A DNA stretch of 64,000 nucleotides from Lamprocystis purpurea DSM 4197 (lineage in GTDB: Bacteria > Pseudomonadota > Gammaproteobacteria > Chromatiales > Chromatiaceae), in contig NZ_KB902491.1 of NCBI RefSeq assembly GCF_000379525.1, positions 1 through 64,000 on the forward strand, in the 5' to 3' direction. This document shows, one piece after another, positions 36,449 to 61,552 of this stretch. The notes under the pieces were generated by a model that was given only the letters and a program-made list of their open reading frames with translations, was not told the origin of the DNA and searched no databases. Position numbers and translations under genes: made by a program. The first letter of the stretch is position 1; the number at the start of each line of letters is the position of its first letter.

Positions 36449-36474
36449 ACTGGTAAACTCTTGATACGTCTAAT

Positions 36475-36690: not shown

Positions 36691-36717
36691 GCAGTGTCTC
36701 CCATCCCGAGCCGCCGC

Positions 36718-37191: not shown

Positions 37192-37300
37192 TGGTTGGCC
37201 TCGCGTCTTTTGTTGAGTTTGAAATCTGTTGAAAACGAATGCGTGATGTCCGGGCAGCGGACGGGCCTCGATCAAGATTCCGGCCACTTGGGCTCGCCGG

Positions 37301-37359: not shown

Positions 37360-37405
37360 GCCGCTGGCCGGGATTACGATCAAGGCCAGCGGCCCGACCC
37401 ATGAC

Positions 37406-37894
37406 TTACTCGCTCCAGCCCTCCGACTCCATCGCATCGAAGCGCTGCTCATCGCGCGGCCGCTGCCGTGCCTCGAGCGCCCGCGCCAACCAGGACGAAG
37501 GTCCGGCCCGCAGTTCTTCCTGGAGGGTCTCGATCAGGTCGCTCACCCTGGCGTCGGGAGTGACCTTGATCGGCTGTATCCCTCTGGCCCTTAACTGATT
37601 CACCGCCGACGACCCGACTGCCTGGCAGTAGATGGCGATGCAGCCATCCAATGCGGTGAACTTCGCGGCCAGCTTATCCTCGTTGCCGTCCATGACCATC
37701 CGATCGAATTGAGTGACTTCCACCAAGTGAGAGCTGTCGGGGTCAATGGCATAGACCGCAAAGGACACGGCCGCACCGAAGTGTTGATCGACATGACGCA
37801 TATCGCCGGTGGCAAAGGCAACCTGGACTGTTGTCTTGTCATCCATCGTATTGGCCCCGTTAGTCACAATCTTGAGACGTCGTTCCACTGTCAT
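37406..37894 (-). CDS. nifX: NifX, FeMo-cofactor precursor carrier
   Basis: 162 residues from ATG 37894. VQVAFATGDMRHVDQHFGAA, FAVYAIDP, DGCIAIYCQAVGSSAVNQL and RGIQPIKV are the NifX/NafY dinitrogenase-cofactor-binding fold, with the conserved His-rich VDQHFG. It carries NifB-co and VK-cluster between NifB and NifEN. Lies 99 bp after nifN. Confidence 0.93.
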   Translation of the reverse strand: MTVERRLKIVTNGANTMDDKTTVQVAFATGDMRHVDQHFGAAVSFAVYAIDPDSSHLVEVTQFDRMVMDGNEDKLAAKFTALDGCIAIYCQAVGSSAVNQLRARGIQPIKVTPDARVSDLIETLQEELRAGPSSWLARALEARQRPRDEQRFDAMESEGWSE

Positions 37895-37993
37895 TGCATT
37901 CGCCCTGGCTGCTGTGATCCCACCTGGACCTTGATCATCGTTCCGGCCCTCGGGTGGACAAGCGACAGCGCCGTCCACCCCGGCTGCGTCTGA

Positions 37994-39382: not shown

Positions 39383-39386
39383 GACG

Positions 39387-45015: not shown

Positions 45016-45095
45016 CAGTGATAGCATTCGGACGTGATAACCGGACAAGGGGCGGGTTTCAAACCCGCCCCTACACCAGGGTCTGTCTGGATATC
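45016..45095 (-). repeat. Dispersed palindromic repeat, copy B
   Basis: Reverse complement of this stretch matches 7608-7688: GATATCCAGAC, GTGTAGGGG, the identical GGGGCGGGTTT-G-AAACCCGCCCC palindrome, TTATCACGTCCGAA and ATCACTG, with one indel. It sits between convergent genes and just reaches the stop codon of the gene at 45094-46548, so it could serve as a bidirectional terminator. Confidence 0.8.
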
Positions 45096-46548
45096 AGGTA
45101 CCAAGGCTATCGCTGTCCGGCACTATTGCAGACGCTGCCAGGCAATCTTCGATCATGGCACGCAACGCCGGGGCGGTCTCGTCGAGGTCGCGCCACCGTG
45201 CGAGCCAGGCCCTGATTCGCATCCGGACGACCGCCCTTGGACAGCCGAGGCTCTGGTGCAGGATGCGGCGTAAACCGTCCTCGCCGTGCTTGCCGAGACT
45301 GGCCCCGATCCGTTTCGGGTGGCTGGCGAGTGCCGGGAGCAGCGCTGGGACCCAAGGACTCTGCGGCAGTCCGACGAGACTCAGGGTCTCGGGGTGGGGG
45401 AGGAAACACAGGGCCGCGGCGCGCAGTTGATCGACCTTGAGTCCCCAACCGCGTTCATCGGCCCAGTGTGGGCGATCCCCGGCGACTTGCGCAACCCAGC
45501 GGCATAGAGGATGTTGGCCGGGGCCGCCGGGCATCGCCAGGGGGCCGGTCACCTGACGCAGGATCCTGCGCAACTCCGCCATATCGAGCAGACGGCGGTG
45601 TGGGTCAGCCGTAAATTGGGCGAGGGTCGTCAATAGGGGGCTGACTTGACAACGCTGCGCCTTGAGGTTCGTACCCGTGCCTGGCCGTCGCTCCGCCAGG
45701 AGCGCGGGGTCCTGGGCGAGCAGGGCAGTGACCAAATGTTCGGCCAGTTCCAGGTGCTCCGATGCCACCGTGGCCGGAGGCCAGCCATGCCCCGTTGCGA
45801 TGACTACGAAGTCCCAGTTGCCTGCCAGATCCTCGGGGTCCAGGGCCTCGGCGGGCACCCATCCGGCCAGGGAGAGAGCGGACGCGGCCTGCGGCGGGAG
45901 CGGCAGCAACAGGGCCGCCAGTGCCTGCGGTCCCAAGGGACCGTCGGGTAATGCCAGGCATGCCGGCCGCACCCCGGACAGGATCTGAGCATAGAGGTTG
46001 CGCAGGCACTCCTGGGTGACTCGCTTGCCCAGTTCATCGAGCCCCTCGCCGATCGTCCGGGCCAGCCAGTCAGGACCCAGACCAGTCAGTTCCAGCGGAT
46101 CCAGGGGGAGGGCATAGTCCGGGTCGCCCCAGCGTCCAAGATGTTGGCGGTCCCGCCAGACCCAATGCTCCAGTCCGGTCGCGGCGGGCAACAGGGCCAA
46201 CGCCGCTAGTGGCGGCGGCACCCCGGGGAACGCTCGCCAGGCGAGGACCTGGCGCTCGAGAAACCCGCCGCGCCCGGCGGCATCCTGGGCACGACTCGGA
46301 TAATAGGCGGCGGCCAGGTAGCCCGGACCGAGCGCTCGCCATCCGGGTGTCCGGGCTGGCCGGTCCTCGGCCCCCAGACGCAGTGCCCGCGCGGGATCCC
46401 AGGCCCCCGCTGCAACGCCTGGGCTGCGCGCCAGCCAACGGAACTCGGGCGGACCGCTCTGGATCTTGCCCCAGATCCCGCGCTCGCAGGTCAGGTTCCA
46501 GGGCGGTGGGGCGGCACCCTGCAGCGCGGGCCAAGCGGGGAGGGTCAT
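45094..46548 (-). CDS. Paralogue of the N-terminal domain of the neighbouring GTPase
   Basis: 484 residues. Residues 1-260 line up with the N-terminal part of the 46545-48269 protein: CERGIWG/CERAVWG, YYPSRA/CYPSRA, FLERQVLAWR/LEKQLIEWR, LALLPAATGLEHWVW/LVLLPQAERLDDTIW and GPLGPQALAALLLPL/GPLSGAALAALLLPL. The C-terminal half is different and helical, and it has no P-loop. It is the last gene of the operon and overlaps the GTPase gene by 4 bp (ATGA). It may regulate or pair with the GTPase. Confidence 0.75.
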   Translation of the reverse strand: MTLPAWPALQGAAPPPWNLTCERGIWGKIQSGPPEFRWLARSPGVAAGAWDPARALRLGAEDRPARTPGWRALGPGYLAAAYYPSRAQDAAGRGGFLERQVLAWRAFPGVPPPLAALALLPAATGLEHWVWRDRQHLGRWGDPDYALPLDPLELTGLGPDWLARTIGEGLDELGKRVTQECLRNLYAQILSGVRPACLALPDGPLGPQALAALLLPLPPQAASALSLAGWVPAEALDPEDLAGNWDFVVIATGHGWPPATVASEHLELAEHLVTALLAQDPALLAERRPGTGTNLKAQRCQVSPLLTTLAQFTADPHRRLLDMAELRRILRQVTGPLAMPGGPGQHPLCRWVAQVAGDRPHWADERGWGLKVDQLRAAALCFLPHPETLSLVGLPQSPWVPALLPALASHPKRIGASLGKHGEDGLRRILHQSLGCPRAVVRMRIRAWLARWRDLDETAPALRAMIEDCLAASAIVPDSDSLGT

Positions 46549-48269
46549 GAGGTCTCGGCACCAGGCGTCGCCGCTTCCAGCCGTTTGAGTACCCAGGTCA
46601 AGGGGTCGAGGAGATGGAGTGGATGCGACTGACTGCTCAGGCGGGGATTCAGATCCTCGTCGAAGAACACTGCCGGGGTGACGGCACCGTGCTCCACCCA
46701 GACTCCGGCGGCGGAAACCGGAAACAGCCGGTAGGTCGCGAAATGGTGTTCCAGGCTCTGCAAAATGTCGTGTTCGACGCGCGCCCGCACAAAGGCGTCA
46801 GGGTCTTCCAGGGCACTGCGGTAGTGCGCGGCGGTCGTGATAAAGGCGTCGGCCTTCGCGAGACAGAAGGCGACGGGGCGGGTGTCGCGCCCCCCCTCGC
46901 GCGTTTCAGCCACCGACATACGGTCGAGTGCGTCCTTGAACGCTTCGCGTTGGAGTGCGACCTCGAGCAAGGGATCGAAGAGCAGGATCAGCCCGTCGGC
47001 CGTGGCAAGCTGTTGGTAAACCGCGTCGGTCTGCAACCGGAAGTCCTCCCCCGCACGGTCCTCGACCTCGATCATTGCCTCGGCGCCGGTGCCGCCGTGG
47101 ACCAGTCGGCACCGAACGGGGCTTGCCTTATCCACCGGGGTCGGTGCCGGAAAGCGGTTCTGCGTCTGCAATCGAGCGCGCAGGGCACGGAAGAAGCCCA
47201 GACTATCGGGTCCGGGATAGACCCGCCATTCACTGTCGGTGGCATGTTCCAACTGCAGGTAGAGTTGGGCCAGGTAAGCGGTCTTGCCGGCCGCGGCGAG
47301 GCCCCAGAGGACCAGGCGGCGGGTTTCCGGTGTGGTCGTGGGGGGCGCTTTGGGCGTGGCGGGGGACGGCCGCGTGGTCGGTCGGGTCTGCAGGCGCCGG
47401 GGGTCGCCGGCAAGGACGGCCGCCGCCATGCGTTCGGCCGCCGAGACCTGGGTCTCGTCCGCCGCGGCCGCCCGGACGGACGCGGTGTCGGTCGGTGCGC
47501 CGCCCAGGATCAGGTCCCAGGGGTGCACGGTCTGGCCCGGACGAAGCCGGCGCGACGGCAGCCAGGCGACCAAGCCCAGGCGGTCCGCCCGCTCCCGCGC
47601 CAGTGGCAGCAGCAACGCGGCGAGGGCAGCGCCGGACAAGGGGCCGGTGAGTCCCGGCAGGGCGATGCCCTTGGCGCCGGCCAGCAGCCGGGTATAGAGC
47701 GCCGCCAGGGCGGGCGGGTCCGTCGCCTCGGCAAGCTCCCGACAACCGGCCAGAATGGTCGTCTGCAGGTCGATCTCGTCGAAGGGGATCTCAGTGGTCT
47801 CGTCGGGTGCCAGCGCAAGATGGAAGCCGTCCGCAAAGTCCCCGTCGTCCCCGGACTTGCCCCACCAGATCGTGTCGTCGAGGCGTTCGGCTTGCGGGAG
47901 CAACACCAATGCCCCGAGGGCCGCCGGCAGGTCTTGGGGGCGGCGCCACTCGATCAGCTGTTTCTCCAGTCCCGGGCGGCCGCCTGCCGGGGCGCGGCTG
48001 GGGTAACAGCGGACGGCGTAGTGGAGGCTGCCCGAACTGCGCCACGCGAGCGTCACCCACGGAACGTCCTCGTCGCCGAACGCCAGGCTGCGCTCGATGC
48101 CCTCCGCACTACCCCCAAACCCGGCGCTGGTCGCGAGCCAGTGCGGCCCGGCGCCGGCGCCTGGTTCCCTGCCCCAGACCGCGCGCTCGCAGCGCAGGGG
48201 GGGCAAGGGATGTCCGACCCACCCGGCCAGTGCCGGCCAGTCCTGCCAGGGGTTGGTTCTAGAGGTCAT
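46545..48269 (-). CDS. P-loop GTPase with an N-terminal partner domain
   Basis: 574 residues from ATG 48269, overlapping the coiled-coil gene by 11 bp. Residues 1-250 are the domain shared with the gene at 45094. A Thr/Pro-rich linker leads to a C-terminal GTPase-like domain: Walker A GLAAAGKT (323-330), IEVEDRAGE as a DxxG-type switch II, and FCLAKAD in the place of NKxD, with the Asn changed to Ala; FPVSAAGVW may be the G5 motif. Small GTPases of TRAFAC type with this layout occur in predicted conflict systems. Specificity for GTP is uncertain because of the NKxD change. No membrane helix. Confidence 0.78.
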   Translation of the reverse strand: MTSRTNPWQDWPALAGWVGHPLPPLRCERAVWGREPGAGAGPHWLATSAGFGGSAEGIERSLAFGDEDVPWVTLAWRSSGSLHYAVRCYPSRAPAGGRPGLEKQLIEWRRPQDLPAALGALVLLPQAERLDDTIWWGKSGDDGDFADGFHLALAPDETTEIPFDEIDLQTTILAGCRELAEATDPPALAALYTRLLAGAKGIALPGLTGPLSGAALAALLLPLARERADRLGLVAWLPSRRLRPGQTVHPWDLILGGAPTDTASVRAAAADETQVSAAERMAAAVLAGDPRRLQTRPTTRPSPATPKAPPTTTPETRRLVLWGLAAAGKTAYLAQLYLQLEHATDSEWRVYPGPDSLGFFRALRARLQTQNRFPAPTPVDKASPVRCRLVHGGTGAEAMIEVEDRAGEDFRLQTDAVYQQLATADGLILLFDPLLEVALQREAFKDALDRMSVAETREGGRDTRPVAFCLAKADAFITTAAHYRSALEDPDAFVRARVEHDILQSLEHHFATYRLFPVSAAGVWVEHGAVTPAVFFDEDLNPRLSSQSHPLHLLDPLTWVLKRLEAATPGAETS

Positions 48270-50562
48270 GCGCTTGGGTCTCCATCCGGGCGGCGATGAG
48301 GTCGTGCAGGTCCAGGCGCAGCGCGTCCGGCGGTGGCTCGTGACGGGGCAGGGCGGCGAGGCGTTGCAACAGCGCCTCGGCCTGAGGGTCCGTGGGCCGG
48401 CGCCGCAGGCCCCGCAGTTGGGTGATGTCGGCGGCATCCTGCACCGCCGCCAGACGGCGGCAGTGATCCTCCAAGGCACCGAGCAGACGCGCCGCCTCGT
48501 CCAGTTGAGCCGACTCGGCCCGAATCGGGCGCACGACCTGGTCGGTTGGGGCAATCAGCGCCTCGATGCGTTGGGCCCACTCCGTGCAGGCTTCCGGGAA
48601 TTCGGGCACTGGCGTACAGAGATTGAGCCGTCGCAGGCGCTCACCCAGTGTCTTGCGCAGGGACCTGACCCGGCTCTGGGTCAGTTCGACCGGTTGCAGC
48701 ACCTGGCGCATGGCCAACCCGAGCCCATGGAGCCGACGGGCCTGGTCCAGCGGGTCGATGTCCGCCGACAGTTGCCACTGCGCCAGGAGGTGGCGTTGCT
48801 CGCTGATCTGCCGTGCCTGCAGCGGACCCAGGCGGTCGGCGTCGATCGCGGCGGCGCGCTGCAGCAGATCCTCACGCTGTTGCTGCAGATGGATCAGCGC
48901 CTGCTCGAGCCCGGTCTCGGCGGTTTCCAGGGAAGCCTGAGCGCGGTCGAGGGCCAGGCTGAGACCGGTGGCTGATCGCAATTGGGGTGGGGCGATCTCG
49001 CTCAGGTCGCCGAGTCCCAGGATGGGAATGGCCCCGAGCAAGCGCTGGATCTCGGCAGCCCGTCCGTGCCGGGCGGCCAGCCTGGCGACACCGGTCGCCA
49101 GCAAGTCCGCCTCCAGCGTGTCCAGGCCCTGGTCCTGGACGTCGGCCTGCGCCAGCATCTGTTCAAGGCGGACCGACCCCGTGGCTGCGAGCTCGGTCAA
49201 GCCCGGGGGCGGCTGTCCAACGCGTTGCGCCAATTTCGTCAGATCGGCACAGCGGGCCGCGACGGCGGTGCGGCGGGCCTCCAGTACTGTCCAATCCTGG
49301 TTGATGTCCTGCTCCAGGGTGTCGAGGCGCGCGCCCAGCTCGCGCAGGGTGCCGATGCCGTTCAGTAGCTCCGCGCCATCGGGGATGGCCTCCATCTGCT
49401 TCAGTTCCAGCGCGAGGTCGCGCAGTCGGCGGTCGGCGGCGTCGAGACGCGGCCGCTCCGCCAACCGCGCCGCACGCTCGCGGCAGGTCTTCGTCATGTC
49501 CGCATAGCTCGTGACAAGCACTTGGCTGTTGTTGCTGACCACGGACCGGAAATCCTCTTGCGCCTGGGTGCAGTTGTCGCGCCAGGCGGCAAAGCCTTCA
49601 GCATCCGCAGGAGTGGTCTGTCGCAGTTCAGTCCAGCGTTGCTCGAGCGGTGCATCCTGTACCCCGACATCCCGCAACAGCGACCGCTGGGCATCGATCT
49701 CGGCCAGCGCGAGGTGTTGCCGCTCGGCGGCGAGTTGCTGGAGCCGGCCTTCCAGAACCGCGGTGCGGACGCGCAGGACCTCGAAGGTATCCTCGTCCTG
49801 GTTGGTCCAATCTTGTCGCTTGCGGGTGAACTCTTGCGCCAGCCCGTCGCACTCCGGGCAGGGCTCGCCGAGCGCCGCGCGCCACTGCAACAGCCCCTGG
49901 ATACGCCCCCCCAGTTCCTGGAGCCCGGGCGGTTGCGGGCGATTGGCGAAGTCTTTCACCGGTTCGAGCAGAGATTGGAGTGCGGCGATCCAGTCCGCGC
50001 CGACTCCCTCGGTAAGCAGGCGCTGACTGAGCACCGGCAGGTCCGCACTCAGTGCGGCCCGACGGGTCTCGGCCTGCAGCCGCTGGAGCCAGTCCTCGGC
50101 TTCACGATAGAGATCCAAAGCCCGCTCCAGGTCGGGCAGGGCGTCCAGGACCGTTTTGAGGCGGCGGCGCTCCGCGGGCAGCGCCTCGGCCGCGACCGTC
50201 GCTTCCCCGGTCCCGGCGAGCTCATCGGCAAGTGCCTGGGCCCGTTCGAGGAACCAGGCGCCAAGGCGGCTATCGCGCACCTGGCCCGCGGTGTCGCGCA
50301 GGCCCCTCAGGCGGATGGACAGGGACTCGGCTTCGTCGGTCAGTACGCTCAGTTCGCTGGCCAGGCGCGCGAGTGCCGCCGCGCGAGTCTCCAGGGCTTG
50401 CAGGTCCCGGCCCCGGATCATCCAGGCCAGACGCTGCGCCTGCGCCTCGACCTCGTGCAGCAGGCCGAGACGACGGTCATGGAAGCCGCGCAGGCGCGGC
50501 GGCAGCGCGCCGAGGTCTTGCAGGCGTTGTTGCAGCCCGCGCAGGCGTTCAGTCGTGCTCAT
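48259..50562 (-). CDS. Long coiled-coil protein
   Basis: 767 residues from ATG 50562, preceded by GGGAGGAATC. Almost entirely alpha-helical heptad-rich sequence with many Leu, Arg, Glu and Gln (RLRGLQQRLQDLG, EAQAQRLAWMIRGRDLQALETRAAAL, LALDRAQASLETAETGLEQALIHLQQQ and so on). One CPEC pair near residue 235 (EPCPECDG) is the only metal-type motif. No enzyme domain or membrane segment. It may be a scaffold that links the GTPase with the membrane proteins encoded on either side. Confidence 0.8.
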   Translation of the reverse strand: MSTTERLRGLQQRLQDLGALPPRLRGFHDRRLGLLHEVEAQAQRLAWMIRGRDLQALETRAAALARLASELSVLTDEAESLSIRLRGLRDTAGQVRDSRLGAWFLERAQALADELAGTGEATVAAEALPAERRRLKTVLDALPDLERALDLYREAEDWLQRLQAETRRAALSADLPVLSQRLLTEGVGADWIAALQSLLEPVKDFANRPQPPGLQELGGRIQGLLQWRAALGEPCPECDGLAQEFTRKRQDWTNQDEDTFEVLRVRTAVLEGRLQQLAAERQHLALAEIDAQRSLLRDVGVQDAPLEQRWTELRQTTPADAEGFAAWRDNCTQAQEDFRSVVSNNSQVLVTSYADMTKTCRERAARLAERPRLDAADRRLRDLALELKQMEAIPDGAELLNGIGTLRELGARLDTLEQDINQDWTVLEARRTAVAARCADLTKLAQRVGQPPPGLTELAATGSVRLEQMLAQADVQDQGLDTLEADLLATGVARLAARHGRAAEIQRLLGAIPILGLGDLSEIAPPQLRSATGLSLALDRAQASLETAETGLEQALIHLQQQREDLLQRAAAIDADRLGPLQARQISEQRHLLAQWQLSADIDPLDQARRLHGLGLAMRQVLQPVELTQSRVRSLRKTLGERLRRLNLCTPVPEFPEACTEWAQRIEALIAPTDQVVRPIRAESAQLDEAARLLGALEDHCRRLAAVQDAADITQLRGLRRRPTDPQAEALLQRLAALPRHEPPPDALRLDLHDLIAARMETQAHDL

Positions 50563-50590: not shown

Positions 50591-53509
50591 TCAATCCAGA
50601 ATGGCGGCGAGTATCCCGAGGGCCTCGCCGCGATAGGGCGGCTGGGCGGACAGCCCGCCATGGGCGCGCCCCAGCGGGGAGCGCAGGCAGGCGGGGCAGC
50701 CTTCGGCGCTGGCGCAGGGGCACGCGCTGAGCCAGGCGCGCGTGTCCGCGAGCAGTTGTTCCACGAGCCCCTGGTCCGCCTCGATGGCCTGCGCGAGTCC
50801 GATGCCCCCGGGGTAGAGGTCGACGAAGAGCAACCCCCAGGCCGGCCGGCCGGCCAACAGTCGTCCCTCGCAGGCGACGATGGCGATATCGTCCTCGGCG
50901 ATGCCCACATGCACGGGAAGACTGTGGCGCAGGGCTTGAGCCAGTGAGTTGAGTCCGCTCGGGAAGTCGCGCAGGCGTTCCGCCTCGATTTCCAGGAAAA
51001 GACCCTGGGTGTGCATGGACAGGCTGGAAATGGGGTTATAGGTCCCACCTTGACCCGCGGTCCAGGTACCGCTCACGGGGTCGCGGGCGTACTCGAGATA
51101 ACCGGAGATGTCCTCCTGATAGTCCAGTGTGACCAGCGAGCGTGCCAGGGGCAGGTGGCCGAAGGCGATGCGCTGGCGGCCCGGGACGGCAGCAATTCGG
51201 CCGAGGCGCGGGGCGAAAACCCGCCAAGTCGACACGGCGGCCTGTTCCCGCCGGCACAGGATGCCCGTACCCAGGCCTGCCCCGTCGCCGCCTTGGGCGT
51301 CGAGTACGGCGGCGACCGAGCCCCAGGGCTGGACGCGGTAGCGCCGGCCGGCGTGGACGAAGACCCGCTGCGGATAGGCGCGAATGGTGATGCGCTCCGG
51401 GTCCAGGCTCAGGAGTCGGGGCTCGCCCTCCCCGGCCGCGGGATCGATGACCGCGACCAGGTCTGTCCCCACGGTATCCAGGGGACGGGGGAAGTCGCGC
51501 GTGATGCGGCCGCTGAACTCGAGCTCCGCCACCAGGCGGCCGTCCTTGAGGTGGCGCACATCGCGGCGGTCGATCAGGCCCTTGGAGGCGAGTTGGCGCA
51601 ATACGCGCTGGATCTCCGAACCCTCGTGATGGAAGCTGGCCATGAGACCGCTGGTGACCTCAGGCAGCTCGTTCAGAGCCAGGAGCAGATGGCGTTGAAC
51701 GACGCCCGGCTGGGGGCCGGTGGCCACCAGGGTCCGGCTGCGCCGGAACAGCGCGGCGGGGTCTTCCATCAGACGCCGCAGGGCGTAGCCCACATAAGGG
51801 TTGCCGAAGGCGAGACAGAGGCCGGCGTGGCGCGACCGCAGTCCGGGGACGGCGCGCCCCCCGGCGGCCAGGATCAGGGCCAGTGACAGGACCTCCGCCG
51901 CCCCGACTTCGCGGATTTCGGCCCCGGCCGTGGCATTGTCCGCCTCCAGGCACGCCCGCAGGGGGCGTCCGGCCACGGTCTGTTGGAGGAAGGCCCCGGC
52001 CTCATCATGGTCCAGATGCTCAGGGATCACGGCGTAGGTCGGCCAACCGGCGGTCACCGAGGCGCGCGCGGCCCCTAACACGGCCTCGGTCACGGGGGGC
52101 CGGGTTTCGGCCCCGGCCGAGGCGGCGGCGGTCGGCTCGAGCAGGTGCAGCGACAGCGGTAGGGCGAGGCGCGGTGGGATCACGACCTGGGTCTCGGGCG
52201 GGAAACGCTGCGGGAGGGATTCGCCTAAGAACGGGATGAACCGGGCGTCGGGCGTGTGGGCCGCACGTACGAATGCCAGGTGACGCAGGTCGCGGCGCCC
52301 GTGGCGCGAGGTAAGCCGATGCAGGCGCTGCGAGATCGCCCAGAAGTTGGCCGCCGGCACCCCCGAATAGCTGTGCAGGTCCCAGAAGACGATCAGGCCC
52401 ACCCGGTGGAGCAGGGCGCGGTCCTGCTCCAGCTTCGGGATAAGTCGGCTCGACAGAGCCTCGGCATCCGTCACCCAGACGAAGGCGCGTGGATGCGGGG
52501 CCGCGCCCGGGCAGGGTGCGTCCACCGCGGCGGCGTCGGCCAGCCAGCCGGTGAGGGTAGTCGCAAAGGCGGTCGCCGCCGCGGGGACCAAGACCAGGGT
52601 GGTGGCCTGAGCGCGGCGGCGCACGATCTGTGCCGCCAGGGCCAAGGATTCGATCTGTCCGCAATCCTCAGGGGCCAGGATGAGCCGGTTGCAGGCCCCC
52701 GCGGTGCCGTCGGCTGTATTCAGGAACTCCTCGATGGCCGCAAACAGTTCCGGGGTCGGCTGGTGGCGGGACAGTTCCGGCCAGTGCCCGGCGAGCCCGC
52801 CCGGCGGCGGGGCGGTCTGGATCTGCGCGGTCGCCGGGTAGGACGCCAGGGTCGTGACCGTGAAACCTTGCCGGCGCATCGCGTCCGGCCAGTCGGGCAG
52901 TGGCGGCGGCGGGGCGGGTTGGGGCTTGGGAGTGCGCACCCGGGCGGGCGGGTCCTTGCTGAGCGCGACCCCGACCAGGGTCGCCAAGGTCAGGGCCAGT
53001 GCCGACCACAGTGCCGCCGGGTAAGGGGCGGATGCGGGTCCCAAGGATGCGGCCCCCGCCAACAGGGGCACCAGCAGGGCGAGGACCGGGATGACCAGGA
53101 CCCAGGTCCGGGTGTCGCGTCGGCCGATGGCCCCGGCCAACCAGCGCGCGCGCTGGGGCTCGGTGCCACGGGGGAAGTGTGCGACGGTGAGCGCCAGGAG
53201 CCAGGGCACCAGCGGCAGGCACAGCGCTATCCAGTAGGCCCCTTCCGGTCCGAAAGCCAGTCCTCCGGAGGCGTCGGGCATGGCGTGCCGACCCGTGCGC
53301 CACAGGTCATCGCGGAGCCACTTGAGCCACCAGGCATGGAGCAGCCCCAAGGTGAAAAGCGGGATCGTCCAGGCGGTGACCCGGGTCCAGTACAGCCCGC
53401 GATCGAGTCGCGCCAGGGCGGCCAGGCGGTCGGCGATGACGGCGATGGTGGCCGCGGCGGCAAGCAGCAGCAGCGCCGGGAGCCAGGTGGGCAGCGTGAA
53501 GCCGGACAT
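50591..53509 (-). CDS. Membrane-anchored degenerate helicase-like protein with DUF1998/MrfA zinc module
   Basis: 972 residues from ATG 53509 (TTG 53515 overlaps the upstream stop). The first 190 residues hold about five membrane helices (WLPALLLLAAAATIAVIA, WIALCLPLVPWLLALTV, WVLVIPVLALLVPLLAGAA, ALWSALALTLATLVGVAL). A Pro-rich linker follows, then two helicase-like lobes in which the Walker A position reads LAPEDCGQIES and the Walker B position VGLIVFWDLHS instead of DEAH, so ATPase activity is unlikely. The C-terminus has WGLLFVDLYPGGIGLAQAI and a CPCASAEGCPACL cysteine cluster, the zinc module of MrfA/DUF1998 helicases. It overlaps neither neighbour but sits 28 bp from the coiled-coil gene. 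Confidence 0.75.
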   Translation of the reverse strand: MSGFTLPTWLPALLLLAAAATIAVIADRLAALARLDRGLYWTRVTAWTIPLFTLGLLHAWWLKWLRDDLWRTGRHAMPDASGGLAFGPEGAYWIALCLPLVPWLLALTVAHFPRGTEPQRARWLAGAIGRRDTRTWVLVIPVLALLVPLLAGAASLGPASAPYPAALWSALALTLATLVGVALSKDPPARVRTPKPQPAPPPPLPDWPDAMRRQGFTVTTLASYPATAQIQTAPPPGGLAGHWPELSRHQPTPELFAAIEEFLNTADGTAGACNRLILAPEDCGQIESLALAAQIVRRRAQATTLVLVPAAATAFATTLTGWLADAAAVDAPCPGAAPHPRAFVWVTDAEALSSRLIPKLEQDRALLHRVGLIVFWDLHSYSGVPAANFWAISQRLHRLTSRHGRRDLRHLAFVRAAHTPDARFIPFLGESLPQRFPPETQVVIPPRLALPLSLHLLEPTAAASAGAETRPPVTEAVLGAARASVTAGWPTYAVIPEHLDHDEAGAFLQQTVAGRPLRACLEADNATAGAEIREVGAAEVLSLALILAAGGRAVPGLRSRHAGLCLAFGNPYVGYALRRLMEDPAALFRRSRTLVATGPQPGVVQRHLLLALNELPEVTSGLMASFHHEGSEIQRVLRQLASKGLIDRRDVRHLKDGRLVAELEFSGRITRDFPRPLDTVGTDLVAVIDPAAGEGEPRLLSLDPERITIRAYPQRVFVHAGRRYRVQPWGSVAAVLDAQGGDGAGLGTGILCRREQAAVSTWRVFAPRLGRIAAVPGRQRIAFGHLPLARSLVTLDYQEDISGYLEYARDPVSGTWTAGQGGTYNPISSLSMHTQGLFLEIEAERLRDFPSGLNSLAQALRHSLPVHVGIAEDDIAIVACEGRLLAGRPAWGLLFVDLYPGGIGLAQAIEADQGLVEQLLADTRAWLSACPCASAEGCPACLRSPLGRAHGGLSAQPPYRGEALGILAAILD

Positions 53510-53511: not shown

Positions 53512-56001
53512 TCAATCGCCCAGGCCGGTCGTCGGGACCCCGGTGACGACCTCGAAGAGATAGACTCGGGTATCGTCCTTGCCTTCATAGATGTTACTCA
53601 CCCCGTCGACCTTGGTACCCTGTTTCCAGGACGACGGCATGACGCAGCAACGGCGGCTCACCGGGGTATCCGCGGCGGGGGCGAAGGCGAATGCCAACGA
53701 AAAATCGGGACGCTTGAGCAGGTCCGTGATGGCCGTCTGCCGCAGTTGCTGTTCGGTGCTGTCGGACGCTGCAAGGGCGGCCTTGAAGGGGCGGACATAG
53801 CCTTGGCTGAGCAGCGCAACGAACTTCAACGGGTCCAGGAAGGCGTCGCAATAATGCCCCGCCCAACCGCGACAGGGCCCAGGGTCTTGATGCAGCTCCT
53901 TGGCCGCGTCGCGGGCGGCACGTTCGTCCCATCCTTGAAAGGGCTCCGGGAGATCCGCCTGGTAGGCGCGCCAGCGCTCCTCGGTCAGTGGATTCGTCTG
54001 CAACATCCGCTCGAGGTCACCCGGTGCCTCGACCCACTGGCGGACGCTGAGTTGCGGTCGACGCGGTTTGCCTTGGACACCCAGGGGGTCCGGGTGTTGC
54101 CCGTGCAGGCGCAGGAACCCGCCGAGCTGCTCGCGCAGCCAACCCAGTTCTCGACGCCGTTGCGCCAGGCGCTCGCCAAGTTGACCGAGGAACTGGAGTG
54201 CCTCGCCCGCCAGGGTGGCGGTGAGGTCGGCGCGGGCCTGCTCCAGGTAGATGGTCAGGGGATCGTCCTGGGCGCGGATCACGGCGGCGAAGCGCCCAGC
54301 CGCGGGGTCCAGATAGAGGTCACGGGCACGGGCGATGCGCCGGTGTACGCCGCGACCGAGCAGCAAGTTCAGAAGCGTCGCCGCGAGTGCGCCTAAGACC
54401 AGCGCCAAGGGGGCCGGCTCGGCGAGCCATTGGGAGGCTTGATGAAGCCAATGGCGTGTTTGGGCCAAGGGGTCGGGTTCCGGCAGGCTCAGCAGGAAGG
54501 CCTGGGCAAAGGGCGCGAGACCCAGGCCCAGAAGCGCGCCGAACAGCAGCCAGAAGGGCGTCAGGGCGCGGCCCTGGCGACCGATCCATTCCCGCGATTG
54601 GCTGAGAAAACGCCGGTGCAGGTCGTCAAGCCCAACGGGACCGTCGCTGCCGCGGGGACGATGGGCCGCGACTTGGGCCTTTATCAAATCCGTGACGGCG
54701 GCCTTAATCTCCTCCTGGACGCTGGCCAGCGGGACCGGCTCGCGCTCGTCATGCAAGTCATCGATGATCGCCTGGCGCACCTTGTCCCCTTGCTGGAGGT
54801 GGCGCTTGCGCAGGTCGAGGACCACCTGATCAATGGTCCGGGCCAGGTCCAATTCCAACTCCCGACACCCCTGCCGGAAACGCAGGCCGGCGCGCTCGGC
54901 CCAGTCCGGGGTCTCCTGGTTGGACAGCGTCAGGATCGCGTTCACCAGACGGTCGACGCCGATCCGCCAGCACTTGACCAAGGGGTCTTCGACCCCGGGG
55001 GTTGGGGTGCTGACCTGACGCAACGGGGCCAGTGCCGCGCGCACGCGCGTCGCCCGCGGCCGGGGGGACTTGTCCCCGGCGAGATAGGGCAGCCACTCCT
55101 GACCGAAGCGGGCGGCGGCGATCTGCCCGAGGAGTGCCGGGCTGCGCTCCAAGAGGCGGATGCCAAAGGCAGCGAGGGGCGGTTGGCCGTGGCTCGGCTG
55201 GCGGTAGAGCCAATCGAAGTCCGCCCGCTTCCCTTCGAAGAGCAGGAACTCCAGAAACAGCGTCGCCTCGTCCAGGCGGGCGTCGCGGTCGCGCTGCGCG
55301 CCCGCGGTCTTGCTGTCCATGAGATAAATGCGCCCCGGTCCCGGCCGGTCGCGGCCAGCGCTCTCCCAGGTCCGCGCCGAGTTGATCAGCGCGCGGCGTA
55401 GGCGTCGGGCGTCCTCGTTCCTGGCCCAGAAGTCGTCGAAGTCGAGTACCGCGATACAGTTGACGACCTGTGCCTCGCTGCCGACCCGGCGCAGGGTCGG
55501 GTCATCCCAGAGTGGACGCAATGCGGCGCGCAACAGGTTATCGATCTGCCCCAGGGCCGCCGCGGTCCCCGGGCGCGCCAGCACGATGAGATCGAGTCCG
55601 TGCACGGCACCCTCCTGACCGGGCCGTTCCCGGCGCGCCTGGGGTGAGAGCAGCGCCCGCTTGGCTTCGTCCACGGCCGCCCCGAGGGCCTGCTCTGGGG
55701 TGGCCGACTCGCCTTCGGGAGCGACCTTGAGGATCTGCCGATAAAGGTCGCGGAAAAACTCCGTGTCGGTGCCGACGGCGGCCGGGTCGGGGAGGTGCTG
55801 ATCGGGGACGCCCGCCAACCCTGGGCGATCCGGTAGCCACAGCAGGGCGAGGTCGCGCAACTGGCGTTCACCGGCCCCGGGACCACCCTGGGGGCGGCGC
55901 GTCCAGGACAGCACGCCGCGCGGGGCGGCGCTCGTGAGCAGGCGTTGCAGGACGTCGCGCCCGAAGTCGCTGTGCCCCACCAGGATCGTCGCCCTGGACA
56001 T
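53512..56001 (-). CDS. Two-TM protein with a tubulin-like, probably degenerate N-terminus
   Basis: 829 residues. The start ATILVGHSDFGRDVLQRLLTSAA parallels the nucleotide-binding start of the tubulin-like protein encoded upstream (FVGLGGVGSQIVDRIAARAAG), but the glycine loop is lost and no GGTGSG motif is found. Two membrane helices lie near residues 480-505 (FWLLFGALLGLGLAPFAQAF) and 525-550 (LALVLGALAATLLNLLL), flanked by helical, probably cytoplasmic regions. The C-terminal 150 residues include RCCVMPSSWKQG. Starts 5 bp after the tubulin-like gene. Confidence 0.65.
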   Translation of the reverse strand: MSRATILVGHSDFGRDVLQRLLTSAAPRGVLSWTRRPQGGPGAGERQLRDLALLWLPDRPGLAGVPDQHLPDPAAVGTDTEFFRDLYRQILKVAPEGESATPEQALGAAVDEAKRALLSPQARRERPGQEGAVHGLDLIVLARPGTAAALGQIDNLLRAALRPLWDDPTLRRVGSEAQVVNCIAVLDFDDFWARNEDARRLRRALINSARTWESAGRDRPGPGRIYLMDSKTAGAQRDRDARLDEATLFLEFLLFEGKRADFDWLYRQPSHGQPPLAAFGIRLLERSPALLGQIAAARFGQEWLPYLAGDKSPRPRATRVRAALAPLRQVSTPTPGVEDPLVKCWRIGVDRLVNAILTLSNQETPDWAERAGLRFRQGCRELELDLARTIDQVVLDLRKRHLQQGDKVRQAIIDDLHDEREPVPLASVQEEIKAAVTDLIKAQVAAHRPRGSDGPVGLDDLHRRFLSQSREWIGRQGRALTPFWLLFGALLGLGLAPFAQAFLLSLPEPDPLAQTRHWLHQASQWLAEPAPLALVLGALAATLLNLLLGRGVHRRIARARDLYLDPAAGRFAAVIRAQDDPLTIYLEQARADLTATLAGEALQFLGQLGERLAQRRRELGWLREQLGGFLRLHGQHPDPLGVQGKPRRPQLSVRQWVEAPGDLERMLQTNPLTEERWRAYQADLPEPFQGWDERAARDAAKELHQDPGPCRGWAGHYCDAFLDPLKFVALLSQGYVRPFKAALAASDSTEQQLRQTAITDLLKRPDFSLAFAFAPAADTPVSRRCCVMPSSWKQGTKVDGVSNIYEGKDDTRVYLFEVVTGVPTTGLGD

Positions 56002-56006: not shown

Positions 56007-59000
56007 TCAGGTCCCGCGGCGCCCGAAGCCGCGGTACGGGCTATCGGCCGACGCCGCCGCCGGGCCCCGGTCACCGGTCAACGCCTCCAAGACCGGGAGC
56101 AGGGCGCGCAGGATGGGTTGGTCAAGGGCATCCTCCCGGGTGAAGGCGCCGTCAAGACGTTTGAGGTTGAGTTCGCCCAAGACCCCCCGCAGGGACCGCG
56201 CGGCCGCTGCTGCCTCCTGCGCCACGCCCGCCGGTCCCAGGTCGTCCAGCGCCGCCTCGAGCTGATCGTCCAGGTCCTTGCGCAGCTCGTCGCCGGCGTG
56301 GATCTCGCCCAGGCGATAGAGTGCCCCGGCAAGGCTCGGGTGCAGGGGTACGGCGCGGGTGGTGCCGTCGCGGTGCCAAGTCCAGCCGCCGGTCTCGAAG
56401 GAGAACACACCCGCGGTCAAACCGCGGGCGAAGGTCGTCAGCGCCCAGCCCACGACCAACTCGGCACGCCGCGGATTGAGATTGGGAAGCGATTCCTCCC
56501 AGTGGAAGTCGGTGTGTAGTTTGTAGCCGCGGCGTTCGTTGGCGGTGACCTTGAGGTAGGCGTCCTCGATCTCGTGAGTGACGGGTGAAAAGTAATAGAG
56601 CGGGATGGGCAACTCCACATCGTGGACAATGACCAGGCGTGGGTCGTGCCCGGGGATGACCTTGACCTGGCGTCCGCCGCTGGACAGGACGTCCTCGAGC
56701 GCCGCGCGCAGACCTTGGGTGCCGCGCCCGTCCGCGGCGGATCCGCCGAGGACGGCGAGGCGGGTGCGGTTGACGATGACCCCGTCGTCCAAGGCGCGGG
56801 ACTCCGCCGAGTCGACCCGTCCGAGCAGGCCGGCGATCTGGTCCAGGGCGCGCAGCTTGCGGGTGCGATAAGCGGCGCCGGCCGCCGCGTCCGCTCCGGC
56901 GCCCAGCACCAGGGCGGACTCCAGGGCCAGGCCCGCGGCAATATCCAGCCCCGCTTCCTCCGTGCCGCCGAGGATGCGCAGTCCCAGCCGCTCGCGACCC
57001 AACCGGACCAGGGCCTCGCGCAGATCCGTTACTGTCTGGTCGACGCCCTTCTCGACGACGCGCCCGTCGCCCTGGACCACCGGCTTCAACTGCTGGGCGA
57101 CCGTACGGGCGAGCAGTTGGCGGTCGAAGGTCCCGAGATAGCGGCCCGCGGCGATGAACAGGGTGTCGTAGACCTCCCGCCACAGCCGCGTGCGGGGTTC
57201 CTCCAGGGTCTCGAAGACCTCCACGCGCAATGCGAACGGCGGCACCCGCGACGCATCACCGCGGCGCAACTGCTCTGCTTGGGCCTCCAGTTCCCTGACC
57301 AGACCATCCATCCGCGTGGCCAGGCGCACGTACTGGCGCGAGCGCCGCGCCAGATAGTCGAGCAGGGCGCGAAATTGGGCCAGGCGGACCTTGGCGTCGA
57401 GTAGATTGACCGCGGCCCCGCGCGTTTTGGTGTACTCGGCCTGGGCCTCCTGCTTGACCTGCTCGAATTCCCGCTCGCCGCGGCCAAAGAGATTGGGGGC
57501 CCCGGCGGCCCGCTGCAGCGAGCCGTAGATGTCCTCGCGCAGGCGCTTGCGCACCGCCGGGTTGGTCAGCAGATCGCCGCGGCCGGTCGCCTCCACCTGG
57601 CTCTCGGCTTCCGGGATCCAGGCGCCGCCGCAGACCTCGAGCAGGCGCACCACCAGATAGCGCTCGGCGATGGGGTCGAGCGCCAGGGCGGCGATCGCCT
57701 CGCCCTCCTCGGCCGCGCGTACCAGGGCCGGCAGGCCCAGGTCGACCAAACGGTTGCCGCCGCGGACCTCCTCCTCCAGTTTGGCGATGTAGTCGATGTA
57801 GGCATTGACGCTTTCCCGCGGGAAGAACATCGAGCGGTCCTTGATGGCGATCTGGTTGATGAGACCGCGGCGGGCCTCGGCCAGGCGCCGCTCGACCCGC
57901 GCCATGAGCGTCTCGCCGCGGGTCTCCTCGCCGCCCGCCGCGGGACCCGCCACGGCGGGCCCACGGTCCACCGACTCCACGAGTTGATACCAGTAGCCGT
58001 CGCGCAATTCCTCGTTGGCGTCCTGGCGGGCCAGTTCCTGCACCGAGGCGACGAAGGCGGCGTTGATCACCTGCTCACGTCCGGCGTCGGACATGCGCTG
58101 GAACTTGGCGTCGGTATAGTCCACGGCGAGTTTGGCGAGTGCCCGGGCACGGTCGTCGGTCGCCCCTGACTGGTCCAATCCGAAGGTGATCTGGGACCGT
58201 ACCGCCTGGGCGGCGAAGCGCAGGGCACAATAGTCGGTGAGGTCCTCTCCGGGCAGGACCAGCGCGGCGGCCCCGTAGGCCCCGAAGTTCTTCGTGTAAC
58301 CCTCGCCCAAGTCGCGCAGAGCGCCGGGGAAGCGCGTCAGACCCTCGAGGTTCTTCTCATAGTTATCGAGTTCTCCCGCCAACTTATCGATGATGGGGGT
58401 GAACACCTGCAGAAAGGCGGCGTCCGCGATCGCCTCCCACGGGTGGCGCAGCCCCAGATGGGGGGCGCGATCGAGGATGAAGGTCAGAAAGAACGGGCGG
58501 TGGTCGACCCGGGTGGGTTCCCGGCCGGTCTCGTTGCGCAGGTAGACGAAGGGCTCACTGGTCCGGCCCGCTTGTTTGACCTGGTCGTAGTCGAGCTTGG
58601 TGAGGTGCTCCAACTCCTTCAGCGCCGCATAGGTGTTGGCATGGATATCGGGGTGCAGCTCGGGCCCGACGTCGTCCGTCAGCAGGGTGGACAGCAGCAG
58701 GTTGGCGATGAGCCGCGGCTGCCATTGCTGGGCGCGGATGACCTCGTCAATGAGATAGGCGGCGGACAGGAAGGAACCGGAGCCGGTACCCCCGGCCAGC
58801 GTACAGTACAGGTAGACGTTGAGCTTCGGCGGTTCCTTCTGGCGCCAGGTCACCCCCGGCCGCAACAGGTCGGTGACCAGATCAACGAAGCGTTGCTTGA
58901 TGGTCGGTGAGTGATAGAAGAATCCCAGACGCGATTCCAGGCGGATCTGCCCGGCCCCCGGATTGAAACCCGCGCGGGGCTGGTAGCCCCGGTCGAGCCA

Positions 59001-59291
59001 GACCTCGGTCTGCGCATCGCGCGAGCGGCGCAGGTTCTCCACGACCTTGGCCTTGTCGAAGGCGGCGATGTTCAGACGATTGGCCTGGGGGATCAGCTTC
59101 AGGCTGTGCTGGTCGTGCTCGTTGGTATCGATGCAGACGAAGGTGGTCAGCGGCTTGAGCTGGGTCTCCCAATTGGGCAAGCCCGCGGCACGGGCGGCGA
59201 TGCGATCGACGATCTGCGACCCGACCCCCCCCAGCCCGACGAACAGGCTGGGGATTACGGTGCCCTGGTCGGTGCGGTAGGGGTGCGGCAT
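56007..59291 (-). CDS. Tubulin/FtsZ-like GTPase (tubulin_2 / FtsZl type)
   Basis: 1094 residues from ATG 59291 with GGAGG 4 nt upstream. Residues 14-30 (PSLFVGLGGVGSQIVDR) form the first nucleotide-binding loop, VCIDTNEHDQ follows at strand 3, and the tubulin signature GGTGSGS is at residues 167-173 in YCTLAGGTGSGSFLSAAYLIDEVI. These are the motifs of the tubulin_2 (PF13809)/FtsZl families. The remaining 700 residues are mostly helical, with RRLAEARRGLINQI-type stretches, and have no membrane segment. Motif integrity suggests GTP binding and possibly polymerisation. It is much longer than FtsZ (about 400). Confidence 0.85.
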   Translation of the reverse strand: MPHPYRTDQGTVIPSLFVGLGGVGSQIVDRIAARAAGLPNWETQLKPLTTFVCIDTNEHDQHSLKLIPQANRLNIAAFDKAKVVENLRRSRDAQTEVWLDRGYQPRAGFNPGAGQIRLESRLGFFYHSPTIKQRFVDLVTDLLRPGVTWRQKEPPKLNVYLYCTLAGGTGSGSFLSAAYLIDEVIRAQQWQPRLIANLLLSTLLTDDVGPELHPDIHANTYAALKELEHLTKLDYDQVKQAGRTSEPFVYLRNETGREPTRVDHRPFFLTFILDRAPHLGLRHPWEAIADAAFLQVFTPIIDKLAGELDNYEKNLEGLTRFPGALRDLGEGYTKNFGAYGAAALVLPGEDLTDYCALRFAAQAVRSQITFGLDQSGATDDRARALAKLAVDYTDAKFQRMSDAGREQVINAAFVASVQELARQDANEELRDGYWYQLVESVDRGPAVAGPAAGGEETRGETLMARVERRLAEARRGLINQIAIKDRSMFFPRESVNAYIDYIAKLEEEVRGGNRLVDLGLPALVRAAEEGEAIAALALDPIAERYLVVRLLEVCGGAWIPEAESQVEATGRGDLLTNPAVRKRLREDIYGSLQRAAGAPNLFGRGEREFEQVKQEAQAEYTKTRGAAVNLLDAKVRLAQFRALLDYLARRSRQYVRLATRMDGLVRELEAQAEQLRRGDASRVPPFALRVEVFETLEEPRTRLWREVYDTLFIAAGRYLGTFDRQLLARTVAQQLKPVVQGDGRVVEKGVDQTVTDLREALVRLGRERLGLRILGGTEEAGLDIAAGLALESALVLGAGADAAAGAAYRTRKLRALDQIAGLLGRVDSAESRALDDGVIVNRTRLAVLGGSAADGRGTQGLRAALEDVLSSGGRQVKVIPGHDPRLVIVHDVELPIPLYYFSPVTHEIEDAYLKVTANERRGYKLHTDFHWEESLPNLNPRRAELVVGWALTTFARGLTAGVFSFETGGWTWHRDGTTRAVPLHPSLAGALYRLGEIHAGDELRKDLDDQLEAALDDLGPAGVAQEAAAAARSLRGVLGELNLKRLDGAFTREDALDQPILRALLPVLEALTGDRGPAAASADSPYRGFGRRGT

Positions 59292-59557: not shown

Positions 59558-61552
59558 TCAAAAACGCTTGGCCGCGAAGGCTGCAAGTCGCACTTGCCGA
59601 AGCAGCACATAGTCGCGCATCAAGGCCAGCTGCGTTACGCCGTTGAGGTCGTTGGACACCTGTCGCGCCGCTGCTGTGGTATTTAGATGAGCGCCGTACG
59701 CGTGCGGCTTGGCCAAGACCGGCGTAACGCGCAACGCTCGATTCAAGGCCGCGGGGATGAGCAGTTTGTTGCCCGGCCGATCAACGAAACCGCTTATATA
59801 ATCTGCCTTACTCACGAACACGCGACCGGGTATTGCCAATGCGCGAATCGCCCGGAATTCCTGCCCAAAAAAATGTTCGATCTCCATCTCGGGCAGTCGA
59901 TGCGCAGGCAATCCTTGGGGTAAACAGCATTCGTATTCGCGTAGCAGGTATCGCAGTGATGCAGACTGGTTGTCCCAATACTGCGAACGTGCAATCGACC
60001 CGACAAACTTGTCGCGGCTATCATAAGTCGAGAGGTAGTCCCGCCATGCATCAAGGAAGCTCTGCCCGGCAATCGGTGGGGTGACGCAGACCTGTTGCCA
60101 TGCCGCGGTAAAGCCGCCCGGCTTCGAGCCGCCGACGATCAGGCGGAGCAACTCGGCGACATAGAGCGGAGTGACATCCCGAACACTCTGATCGGGAATG
60201 GTCTCGATTTCATCTCGAATGACCTGCTTCCACGGCATGTCACTGGGAACATTCGCCGACGCCTCGTTGTACAGGGCGATGAGGTCCTGCTTTATCGCTT
60301 GATTGGAAAGACGGATCTGGCCGAGAACCGCATGCCAGTCAGTGCCGCACAGATCAGGCACGGCGAGCAGTATTGCGAGCTGTTTGGCCTGCAAACCCAA
60401 GGAATCCAGGACCATCACATAGTCGTCAAGCGCGTCACGCTGCGGTGAAGCCGGGATAATGCCATTGACGAAGCTCGGCACGCCAAGCAGGTTGCCTGCA
60501 CGAGCCAGTGTCAAACGATTTGCCAGCGCACTGTGCCGTGTTGCCAGGCTGCTGCTCTTTGCAACCACATCGCCAACAAGCCCCGCCGGGTTGTTACCCT
60601 GACCTGAAAGAAGAGCGCGGAAACTTTGGTAAATGCTTTCCAGACTGCCGTCGTGTGCCCGCGGATAGAGTTGATCTGGTGCGGCTCCGTAATTCTGTCC
60701 GGCGATTGGCTCCCACAGGCAAATCGCCAGTTGTCGCAGAAAGTCATCTTCGTTAAGGAGGCTTGCATCCAGATCGATTGAGAGGTAGACACGACCGAAA
60801 CTTGTATTCAATGGTTGTGCCTGATTGAAGCCTCCGTTTTCGTCGGCTTCCATCGCCAGGCTTTTGATCTTCTCCAGTTTTGTCAGGTCTTTTCCACGAT
60901 CATTCAGGGTCAAAAACGGACCCAATGTTGCACCGCGAGGAAGCTGCACCCACACCAGCTCGGTGTGCGCACCGATTAGAAATCTGTGTTCAGGGCTGCC
61001 TGCTATAAATGGCGGTTGGGGCGGCATAGCGAACAGCTCTTGAAGTCGCCGTTGACTGCGCGTGTTCATCGGGGGCACGGGATTGCCCATGCCGAGTAGC
61101 GAGCGCCAGAGTTCGTGATCTGTCGCAGGACTGAGTATGACTTTGGGAATCGTCCGTTCATTTGGCATCGTGACGTATCGCATCTTGCTCCCAGCGCAGC
61201 GCTCGAGCAGCCCAAAGAGGGTCACGAGACGCTGTTGGCCGTCTACGACGAGATGGACGCGAAAGATTGAGTCAGTCGCCTGAAAGCCATTGTTAGAAAG
61301 AGTGTTGATGTCTTCGTTGGCTGGATCGCTGTAGTTAGTCAGCAGTGCACTGTCGGGTTGTACTTCGATTGTATGAATCGCCCCAAAATAATGGATCGTA
61401 TTTGGGTTATGACGCTGCCGGGCGGTGGCAACCTGTATATCCCGAATCATATCCTCCCGGTGTGATTGCTCCCAGGCATAGGGGCGCTGGAAGGTTGGGA
61501 TGACGAAGATGTTGGCCTCGGTAAACAATTCCGAGGCGGCTTTGAACGTCAT
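59558..61552 (-). CDS. DUF262/GmrSD-like protein
   Basis: 664 residues. The N-terminal DUF262 domain has IPTFQRPYAW (18-27) and VVDGQQRLVTLFGLL (Asp104 of the DGQQR motif), the ParB-like NTPase/nuclease signature of GmrS. The C-terminal region has LPEMEIEHFFGQEF and PGNKLLIPAALNRAL, which fits the DUF1524 His-Asn nuclease domain with a His in EHFF. It looks like a single-chain GmrSD-type modified-DNA restriction or abortive-infection protein. By eye it is clearly less GC-rich than everything around it, which suggests separate acquisition. Lies in the same orientation as the tubulin-like operon. Confidence 0.83.
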   Translation of the reverse strand: MTFKAASELFTEANIFVIPTFQRPYAWEQSHREDMIRDIQVATARQRHNPNTIHYFGAIHTIEVQPDSALLTNYSDPANEDINTLSNNGFQATDSIFRVHLVVDGQQRLVTLFGLLERCAGSKMRYVTMPNERTIPKVILSPATDHELWRSLLGMGNPVPPMNTRSQRRLQELFAMPPQPPFIAGSPEHRFLIGAHTELVWVQLPRGATLGPFLTLNDRGKDLTKLEKIKSLAMEADENGGFNQAQPLNTSFGRVYLSIDLDASLLNEDDFLRQLAICLWEPIAGQNYGAAPDQLYPRAHDGSLESIYQSFRALLSGQGNNPAGLVGDVVAKSSSLATRHSALANRLTLARAGNLLGVPSFVNGIIPASPQRDALDDYVMVLDSLGLQAKQLAILLAVPDLCGTDWHAVLGQIRLSNQAIKQDLIALYNEASANVPSDMPWKQVIRDEIETIPDQSVRDVTPLYVAELLRLIVGGSKPGGFTAAWQQVCVTPPIAGQSFLDAWRDYLSTYDSRDKFVGSIARSQYWDNQSASLRYLLREYECCLPQGLPAHRLPEMEIEHFFGQEFRAIRALAIPGRVFVSKADYISGFVDRPGNKLLIPAALNRALRVTPVLAKPHAYGAHLNTTAAARQVSNDLNGVTQLALMRDYVLLRQVRLAAFAAKRF

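Follow-up and report, generated by a model that had tools for sequence, protein, structure and literature searches.

A reverse-strand gene of Lamprocystis purpurea DSM 4197, lying at 50591-53509 of the window analysed here (64,000 nucleotides, positions 1 to 64,000 of contig NZ_KB902491.1), almost certainly belongs to a conserved, catalytically dead family related to the MrfA/YprA superfamily-2 helicases, and its product is referred to below as the pseudohelicase. The frame runs from an ATG at 53509 to a stop codon ending at 50591 and encodes 972 residues. Hydropathy and loop charges predict an inner-membrane protein anchored by about five helices with its helicase-like part in the cytoplasm, and the genes that accompany it across genomes make it very probably part of a tubulin/GTPase complex. 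The tubulin/GTPase operon was missed by the original prediction, made from the letters of the window alone, and is the more informative part of the picture than the pseudohelicase by itself.

Loss of the motor is seen throughout the family. The characteristic stretches of the window protein begin at residues 279 (APEDCGQIES), 375 (FWDLHS), 896 (VDLYPGGIGLA) and 930 (CPCASAEGCPACL). In a joint alignment of the family with 11 intact MrfA proteins from related bacteria, the TPTASGK[ST] of the intact proteins pairs with APEDCGQIE and their DE[LM]H pairs with WDLH. The Walker A lysine is glutamine in every pseudohelicase, the motif II aspartate is lost in all 15 (tryptophan in 11, phenylalanine in two, cysteine and leucine in one each), and the glutamate position that follows holds aspartate in 10, arginine in three and glutamine in two. 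All three residues are invariant in the 11 controls, and the signature of an active superfamily-2 helicase is kept by 0/15 members. Degeneration extends to motifs Ia, III, IV, V and VI, of which III and VI have gone altogether. The lost Walker A and B residues of the window protein, already noticed in the original prediction, can therefore be extended to the whole family, in which no homologue with an intact Walker A or DEAH motif was found. The controls were MrfA-sized frames (598-914 residues) picked from 41 matches to the MZB domain; 12 loci were fetched and one, L087, a 598-residue frame without the N-terminal motifs, was dropped, and MZB matches of 1000-2200 residues plus several of MrfA-like size lie outside the set. 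The window's own genome supplied one of the controls, L081, and so retains a normal MrfA as well.

At the former Walker A site the pseudohelicases share a new conserved pattern, A-P-[DE]-x-x-G-Q-x-E, from which only L006 and L020 (alanine for proline) and L119 (glycine for the first alanine) depart. Such conservation suggests a site still in use, with ATP hydrolysis hardly the purpose. The invariant glycine and glutamine do mean that something binds or folds there, and the aspartate at the motif II glutamate position in 10/15 members could be read as a sign that ATP is still bound or hydrolysed by unusual motifs, with glutamine standing in for lysine. This reading is improbable, since the same position is glutamine or arginine in the other 5/15, a degree of variation that a catalytic motif would not show, and motifs III and VI have disappeared.

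The middle of the protein had been proposed to form helicase lobes, and structure prediction with comparison to MrfA finds these lobes present. An AlphaFold2 model built on 11 sequences has a mean predicted local distance difference test score (pLDDT) of 67.9; the score stays below 50 over most of the membrane part and above 70 over most of residues 204-970, with weaker stretches at about 600-750. The top Foldseek ranks of this model are MrfA entries (E = 5.8e-24, 8.5e-20, 1.1e-18 and 1.6e-16), followed by further superfamily-2 helicases from E = 9e-8 (Pol theta). VIA-align superposes it on MrfA with Z 21.1 and 7.4 Å over 557 residues, spanning residues 204-969, and Brr2, Pol theta and Hel308 match at Z of about 18-20 over the lobes (about residues 212-716) without the zinc domain. 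The idea of a zinc domain joined to an unrelated fold is rejected on the strength of these matches over the lobes. Profile comparison by hhalign with the 11 intact MrfA proteins, zinc domain included, gives a probability of 94.7 and E = 6.2e-8 with a collinear alignment of residues 357-971. Two points weigh against reading the middle as helicase lobes. With the zinc domain cut on both sides, hhalign returns only E = 0.013 and a probability of 3.4, and MrfA was in the training data of AlphaFold2, so model and MrfA are not independent of each other. The zinc-less alignment still contains 346 collinear columns; three unrelated controls gave E 0.16-0.26 over 22-35 columns. Sequence similarity being weak outside the zinc domain, it is mainly the fold that supports the lobes, and judged by the predicted model their resemblance to helicase lobes is more than a chance one.

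Weak similarity of this kind could also be expected if the gene were a decaying pseudogene, or if the helicase resemblance were confined to the zinc domain. Either explanation is barely credible, because the lobes match on their own in the fold comparison and the reading frame is open in 15/15 members. The ratio of nonsynonymous to synonymous substitution rates (dN/dS), calculated for six close pairs from four clusters, is 0.100-0.212 over the gene as a whole and 0.077-0.234 within the core; five of the six pairs have a looser membrane part (0.199-0.338). A pseudogene is rejected on these low values, and the purifying selection that they represent implies that the pseudohelicase is being kept.

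The two ends of the protein can be assigned with the help of profiles and hydropathy. At the C terminus the Pfam MZB profile matches over its whole length (E = 5.2e-11, residues 856-942), in agreement with the DUF1998/MrfA-type zinc part originally proposed, and the remaining matches in curated libraries also fall at this end (TIGR03817, E = 1.4e-9; DruE of PADLOC, E = 4.7e-6). All four zinc cysteines are present in the window protein and in 11/15 members; they are absent from L021, L023, L024 and L119. The description of an intact zinc module thus holds for the window protein and for most of its relatives, and as a family-wide trait it is contradicted by these four. At the N terminus, about five membrane helices had been counted, and the hydropathy profile of the window protein has four strong segments, with a fifth, between the first and the second, in most homologues. 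Charges in the loops obey the positive-inside rule, which places the large C-terminal part in the cytoplasm.

The pseudohelicase is the third of six genes on the same strand, which encode, in order, a Tubulin_2 protein, a membrane protein of 829 residues (TM829), the pseudohelicase, a conserved neighbour of 768 residues (CC768), a double-GTPase and a protein of 484 residues (Table 1). The genes are separated by gaps of 2, 5 and 28 base pairs or overlap by 4 and 11, an arrangement that suggests coupling. The P-loop GKT is kept in 7/7 aligned double-GTPases. The complete six-gene set occurs in 8/14 loci (the window, L015, L021, L022, L023, L024, L029 and L032), where the last gene of L022 is cut by a contig end and the first gene of L023 by the end of the stretch. 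More informative still is the distribution of the double-GTPase. It is kept, together with its partner, in 12/12 genomes tested, including those in which the operon is split, in a copy number equal to that of the pseudohelicase copies found, and its profile is met in 8/107 relatives, exactly the eight that have a full-length pseudohelicase among the 190 searched. This co-occurrence is the strongest sign that the parts form one machine. Other loci weigh against such a unit: in L025, L026 and L027 the pseudohelicase and TM829 are paired away from the other operon genes, and TM829 was not found beside the pseudohelicase in L018 and L019. The parts therefore need not act one-to-one. L031/L019 holds the pseudohelicase with CC768, and L018 and L020 hold it alone on short contigs; the views of L018, L019/L031 and L020 are incomplete, through short contigs or split operons.

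Table 1 Pseudohelicase, its domains and motifs, and the other genes of the operon (window coordinates)
Feature	Position	Strand	Description	Basis
Pseudohelicase	50591..53509	-	About five membrane helices, two RecA-like lobes, helical/OB/connector region, MZB zinc domain	Open reading frame, motifs, Pfam MZB, AlphaFold2, fold searches
Membrane region	52952..53488	-	Residues 8-186	Family hydropathy and loop charges
RecA-like lobes 1 and 2	51740..52900	-	Residues ~204-590; boundaries approximate, from secondary structure	AlphaFold2 model compared with MrfA, Brr2 and Hel308
Degenerate Walker A	52649..52675	-	Residues 279-287, APEDCGQIE, Lys to Gln	Joint alignment with 11 intact MrfA
Degenerate motif II	52358..52390	-	Residues 374-384; WDLH at the DELH position	Alignment
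MZB zinc domain	50684..50944	-	Residues 856-942; cysteines 930, 932, 938, 941	Pfam
TM829	53512..56001	-	Membrane protein, 829 residues, adjoins pseudohelicase upstream; N-terminal ~300 residues probably tubulin fold without GGTGSG	
Tubulin_2 protein (FtsZ-like 1 type)	56007..59291	-	GGTGSG intact	PF13809 E = 1.8e-40; signature in 8/8 aligned
CC768	48259..50562	-	Conserved neighbour, 768 residues, probably coiled-coil (from composition)	
Double-GTPase	46545..48269	-	P-loop GKT intact; extra N-terminal domain	PF19993 E = 1.3e-11; alignment
Last gene	45094..46548	-	484 residues, paralogue of double-GTPase N-terminal domain	hhalign probability 100, E = 3.7e-53

Some further observations concern these partners. 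The 280-residue N-terminal domain common to the double-GTPase and the last gene (45094-48269, reverse strand) has no name in the libraries scanned; in L023 and L024 the GTPase is without it and the last gene retains it. Tubulin_2 genes are also found elsewhere. The window's own genome has a third one (L090, on G000:C168) with no pseudohelicase, TM829 or GTPase neighbours by profile, and at four other Tubulin_2 neighbourhoods (L093-L096) the pseudohelicase was not found by profile at E<=1e-3. The Tubulin_2 proteins of L094 and L095, from two other genomes in the phylum, terminate in a GYF_2 domain.

The start of TM829 (TLLIGYG.FG) is similar to the first loop of Tubulin_2 proteins, which prompted a model of the protein. 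In VIA-align, 50/50 rows for the model are tubulins (Z 12.6-13.8, 222-257 residues), the top one at 4.9 Å over 233 residues, and hhalign supports the likeness over 27 columns only (P = 5.8e-4). Several results speak against a tubulin fold. The AlphaFold2 model, built on 7 sequences, is moderate (pLDDT 60.9, predicted template modelling score 0.40); Foldseek finds nothing at E<=0.001, with the first tubulin at E = 0.013 and dynamin-like and pore-forming proteins ranked above it; and full-length TM829 compared with the Tubulin_2 profile by hhalign finds nothing (probability 2.1). Pfam gave just scattered weak matches in 8 TM829 homologues, for example TrkA_N at E = 0.0076 in one. The GGTG signature is missing from 8/8 TM829 proteins and kept in 8/8 Tubulin_2 proteins. 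From the model, TM829 is probably a tubulin fold that lacks the GTP signature, and would then likely be the second dead enzyme of the operon.

The family looks rare, with 15 distinct members in total. A search of 190 relatives (E<=1e-3) gave 14 matches in 10 genomes, and full-length copies number 10, in 8 genomes (two each in G000 and G007); matches to the zinc domain only (L010, L011, L013 and L014) were excluded from the family. A scan of the GTDB contig collection returned 10 loci, among which L015, L021, L023 and L024 were new, in hosts named as Chromatiaceae, Thiodictyon, Lamprocystis, a proteobacterium and Methylococcaceae, and among 151 relatives of genome G859 three have a match, adding member L119. 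In 369 genomes of the class, searched at E<=1e-20, the window's own genome is the sole match. A search of the viral contig collection yielded no relative, and the plasmid collection yielded only the zinc-domain ends of six haloarchaeal helicases and one remote Tubulin_2.

What could a helicase body without a motor be used for? The pseudohelicase is likely to be a scaffold or receptor, and as such would not move on nucleic acid. Together with TM829 it would form a fixed membrane platform for the GTP-dependent assembly of the intact Tubulin_2 protein, with the double-GTPase and its partner protein switching that assembly on or off. CC768, as a likely coiled coil, may space or link the parts, and the former ATP cleft and the OB/zinc canopy could offer a partner or ligand a place to dock. 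The explanation as a whole, that of a platform or receptor in which a dead helicase at the membrane is part of a GTP-driven tubulin-like assembly, is somewhat favoured; whether the pseudohelicase anchors tubulin-like filaments in particular is close to an even call, tilting slightly to the negative side.

The nature of the ligand can be approached through the remaining motifs. Motifs Ia, IV and V contact DNA in helicases, where they hold its backbone, and they too are degenerate here. The pseudohelicase core is also mildly acidic (net charge -4 to -16, isoelectric point 5.8-6.7, in 14/14), although its ranges overlap with those of the intact MrfA core (net charge -7 to +13, isoelectric point 6.4-9.1, n = 11). 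These two features lean towards a protein ligand, and the loss of further helicase motifs together with the acidic core leans towards a scaffold over a nucleic-acid sensor.

Genes around the operon bear on its setting. Directly upstream of the tubulin gene lies a GmrSD_N gene (59558-61552, reverse strand), a possible type IV restriction component. The contig was also followed beyond the window as L034, which begins at base 62901, and there, again upstream of the operon, an island at 1889-5803 and 6360-10945 holds an ADP-ribosylglycohydrolase-glyoxalase fusion, a DarT-like gene and a UvrD/GajB-like helicase. Two genes of this island have VWA matches (E = 9.4e-5 and 1.8e-3), both below the Pfam cut-off. 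The window gene at 61991-63961, which itself has no VWA match, is related to one of the two; another relative of that window gene (L032, 16930-19500) adjoins the tubulin operon in G007, so the gene may belong to the system. Elsewhere in the window, 29673-40862 encodes two nitrogenase-component-1-type proteins, a phytochrome and a large sensor kinase.

The flanking island and the GmrSD-type gene lean towards a role in defence, and the pseudohelicase could accordingly be pictured as an immune sensor, whose dead helicase and OB/zinc canopy would bind foreign DNA or RNA at the membrane and trigger tubulin-like assembly through the double-GTPase. DISARM, Dpd, Druantia and ARMADA defence all centre on MrfA/YprA relatives according to the available part of PMC12458937, and double-GTPase systems with tubulins are proposed as conflict systems in that of PMC7159879. 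The degenerate DNA-contacting motifs argue against such a sensor, as do the slightly acidic core, overlapping as its ranges are, the loss of the zinc cysteines in 4/15 members and a PADLOC match of the operon proteins that is limited to the MZB part of DruE. A nucleic-acid sensor is on balance rather unlikely. Less likely again is a broader version in which TM829 and the pseudohelicase would form a receptor pair of dead enzymes, with foreign nucleic acid or another ligand, bound at the inner membrane, triggering GTP-dependent assembly of the intact tubulin-like protein; if true, this pair would amount to a bacterial immune or stress receptor of novel architecture.

A machine for membrane remodelling or intracellular positioning, with no defence role and with the pseudohelicase as a structural membrane adaptor, is a little more probable than the sensor and still a minority view. 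Such a role is what the available part of PMC2875224 proposes for those FtsZ-like 1 operons that carry a vWA protein and a GTPase. The present operon has two membrane proteins, and weak vWA matches lie upstream. Chromatiaceae and Methylococcaceae make up most of the named hosts, and both families are known for building internal membranes. Against this view, no OmpA-family protein was found among the operon, window and upstream proteins scanned, although such a protein, known from FtsZ-like 1 systems of several genomes, is not universal in them. The system is also rare and patchy (8/107 relatives, and 3/151 relatives of G859), an occurrence more in keeping with an accessory role than with a basic one.

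That a motor-less family is kept, at the membrane and in a tubulin/GTPase operon, shows the helicase body to be useful in its own right. In the portions available of the texts cited, MrfA/YprA helicases are central to DNA repair and to several anti-phage systems, and are always motors. FtsZ-like 1 and double-GTPase systems gain a defined membrane component, through which both of their proposed roles, membrane remodelling and conflict, become testable. In a purple sulfur bacterium and some of its relatives, the pseudohelicase suggests that a membrane machine still little understood has a component of a new kind. Tubulin/GTPase operons are known, and a dead, membrane-bound MrfA-type helicase within them was not found in print, in a search of the open-licence literature, with most subscription papers outside it.

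The operon can be compared with several known systems. FtsZ-like 1 operons, as described in the available part of Makarova and Koonin 2010 (PMC2875224), carry a vWA protein, a GTPase and membrane proteins, with membrane remodelling proposed as their role. The present operon resembles them in its GGTGSG-intact Tubulin_2 protein, divergent GTPase, membrane proteins and weak vWA neighbours, and differs in its pseudohelicase; the word helicase never appears in that text. Kaur et al. 2020 (PMC7159879), in the part available, describe double-GTPase conflict systems, one type of which is accompanied by tubulins in about half of the cases. The PF19993 GTPase, the tubulin partner and a second protein just downstream of the GTPase are shared with these DO-GTPase systems. 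Their tubulin theme is given there for Firmicutes and Actinobacteria, and neither MZB nor DUF1998 is mentioned in the text. Position and pairing would fit GAP1 for the last gene, which has no match to it at E<=5 in 6/6 homologues, a sequence that may be too divergent; none of the six operon proteins matches a GASH or FNIII-repeat component. The FtsZ/tubulin origin paper (PMC9871819) and the CoCoNuT paper (PMC11090510) were also consulted, in the parts available.

The helicases of DISARM, Druantia, ARMADA and Dpd defence share the OB-connector-DUF1998 part with the pseudohelicase. The Dpd helicase has lost its zinc cysteines (PMC12458937, in part), as has the sub-branch described above, whereas the ARMADA helicase needs its Walker motifs. 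A PADLOC scan of 9 window proteins found none of the partner genes of these four systems, and a DISARM or Druantia component is rejected, since only the MZB part of DruE is matched and the helicase motifs are lost. In the available part of the preprint by Bell et al. 2025 (PMC12458937), inactivation is discussed for nucleases and for a GTPase, and the words tubulin and transmembrane are absent. MrfA/YprA (PDB 6znp, 6znq and 6zns) remains the best match of the pseudohelicase in both fold and profile, with two RecA lobes, a helical part, an OB/connector region and MZB in the same order. Unlike MrfA/YprA, the pseudohelicase has no motor motifs, has lost the zinc cysteines in one sub-branch, begins with membrane helices and is encoded in a tubulin/GTPase operon.

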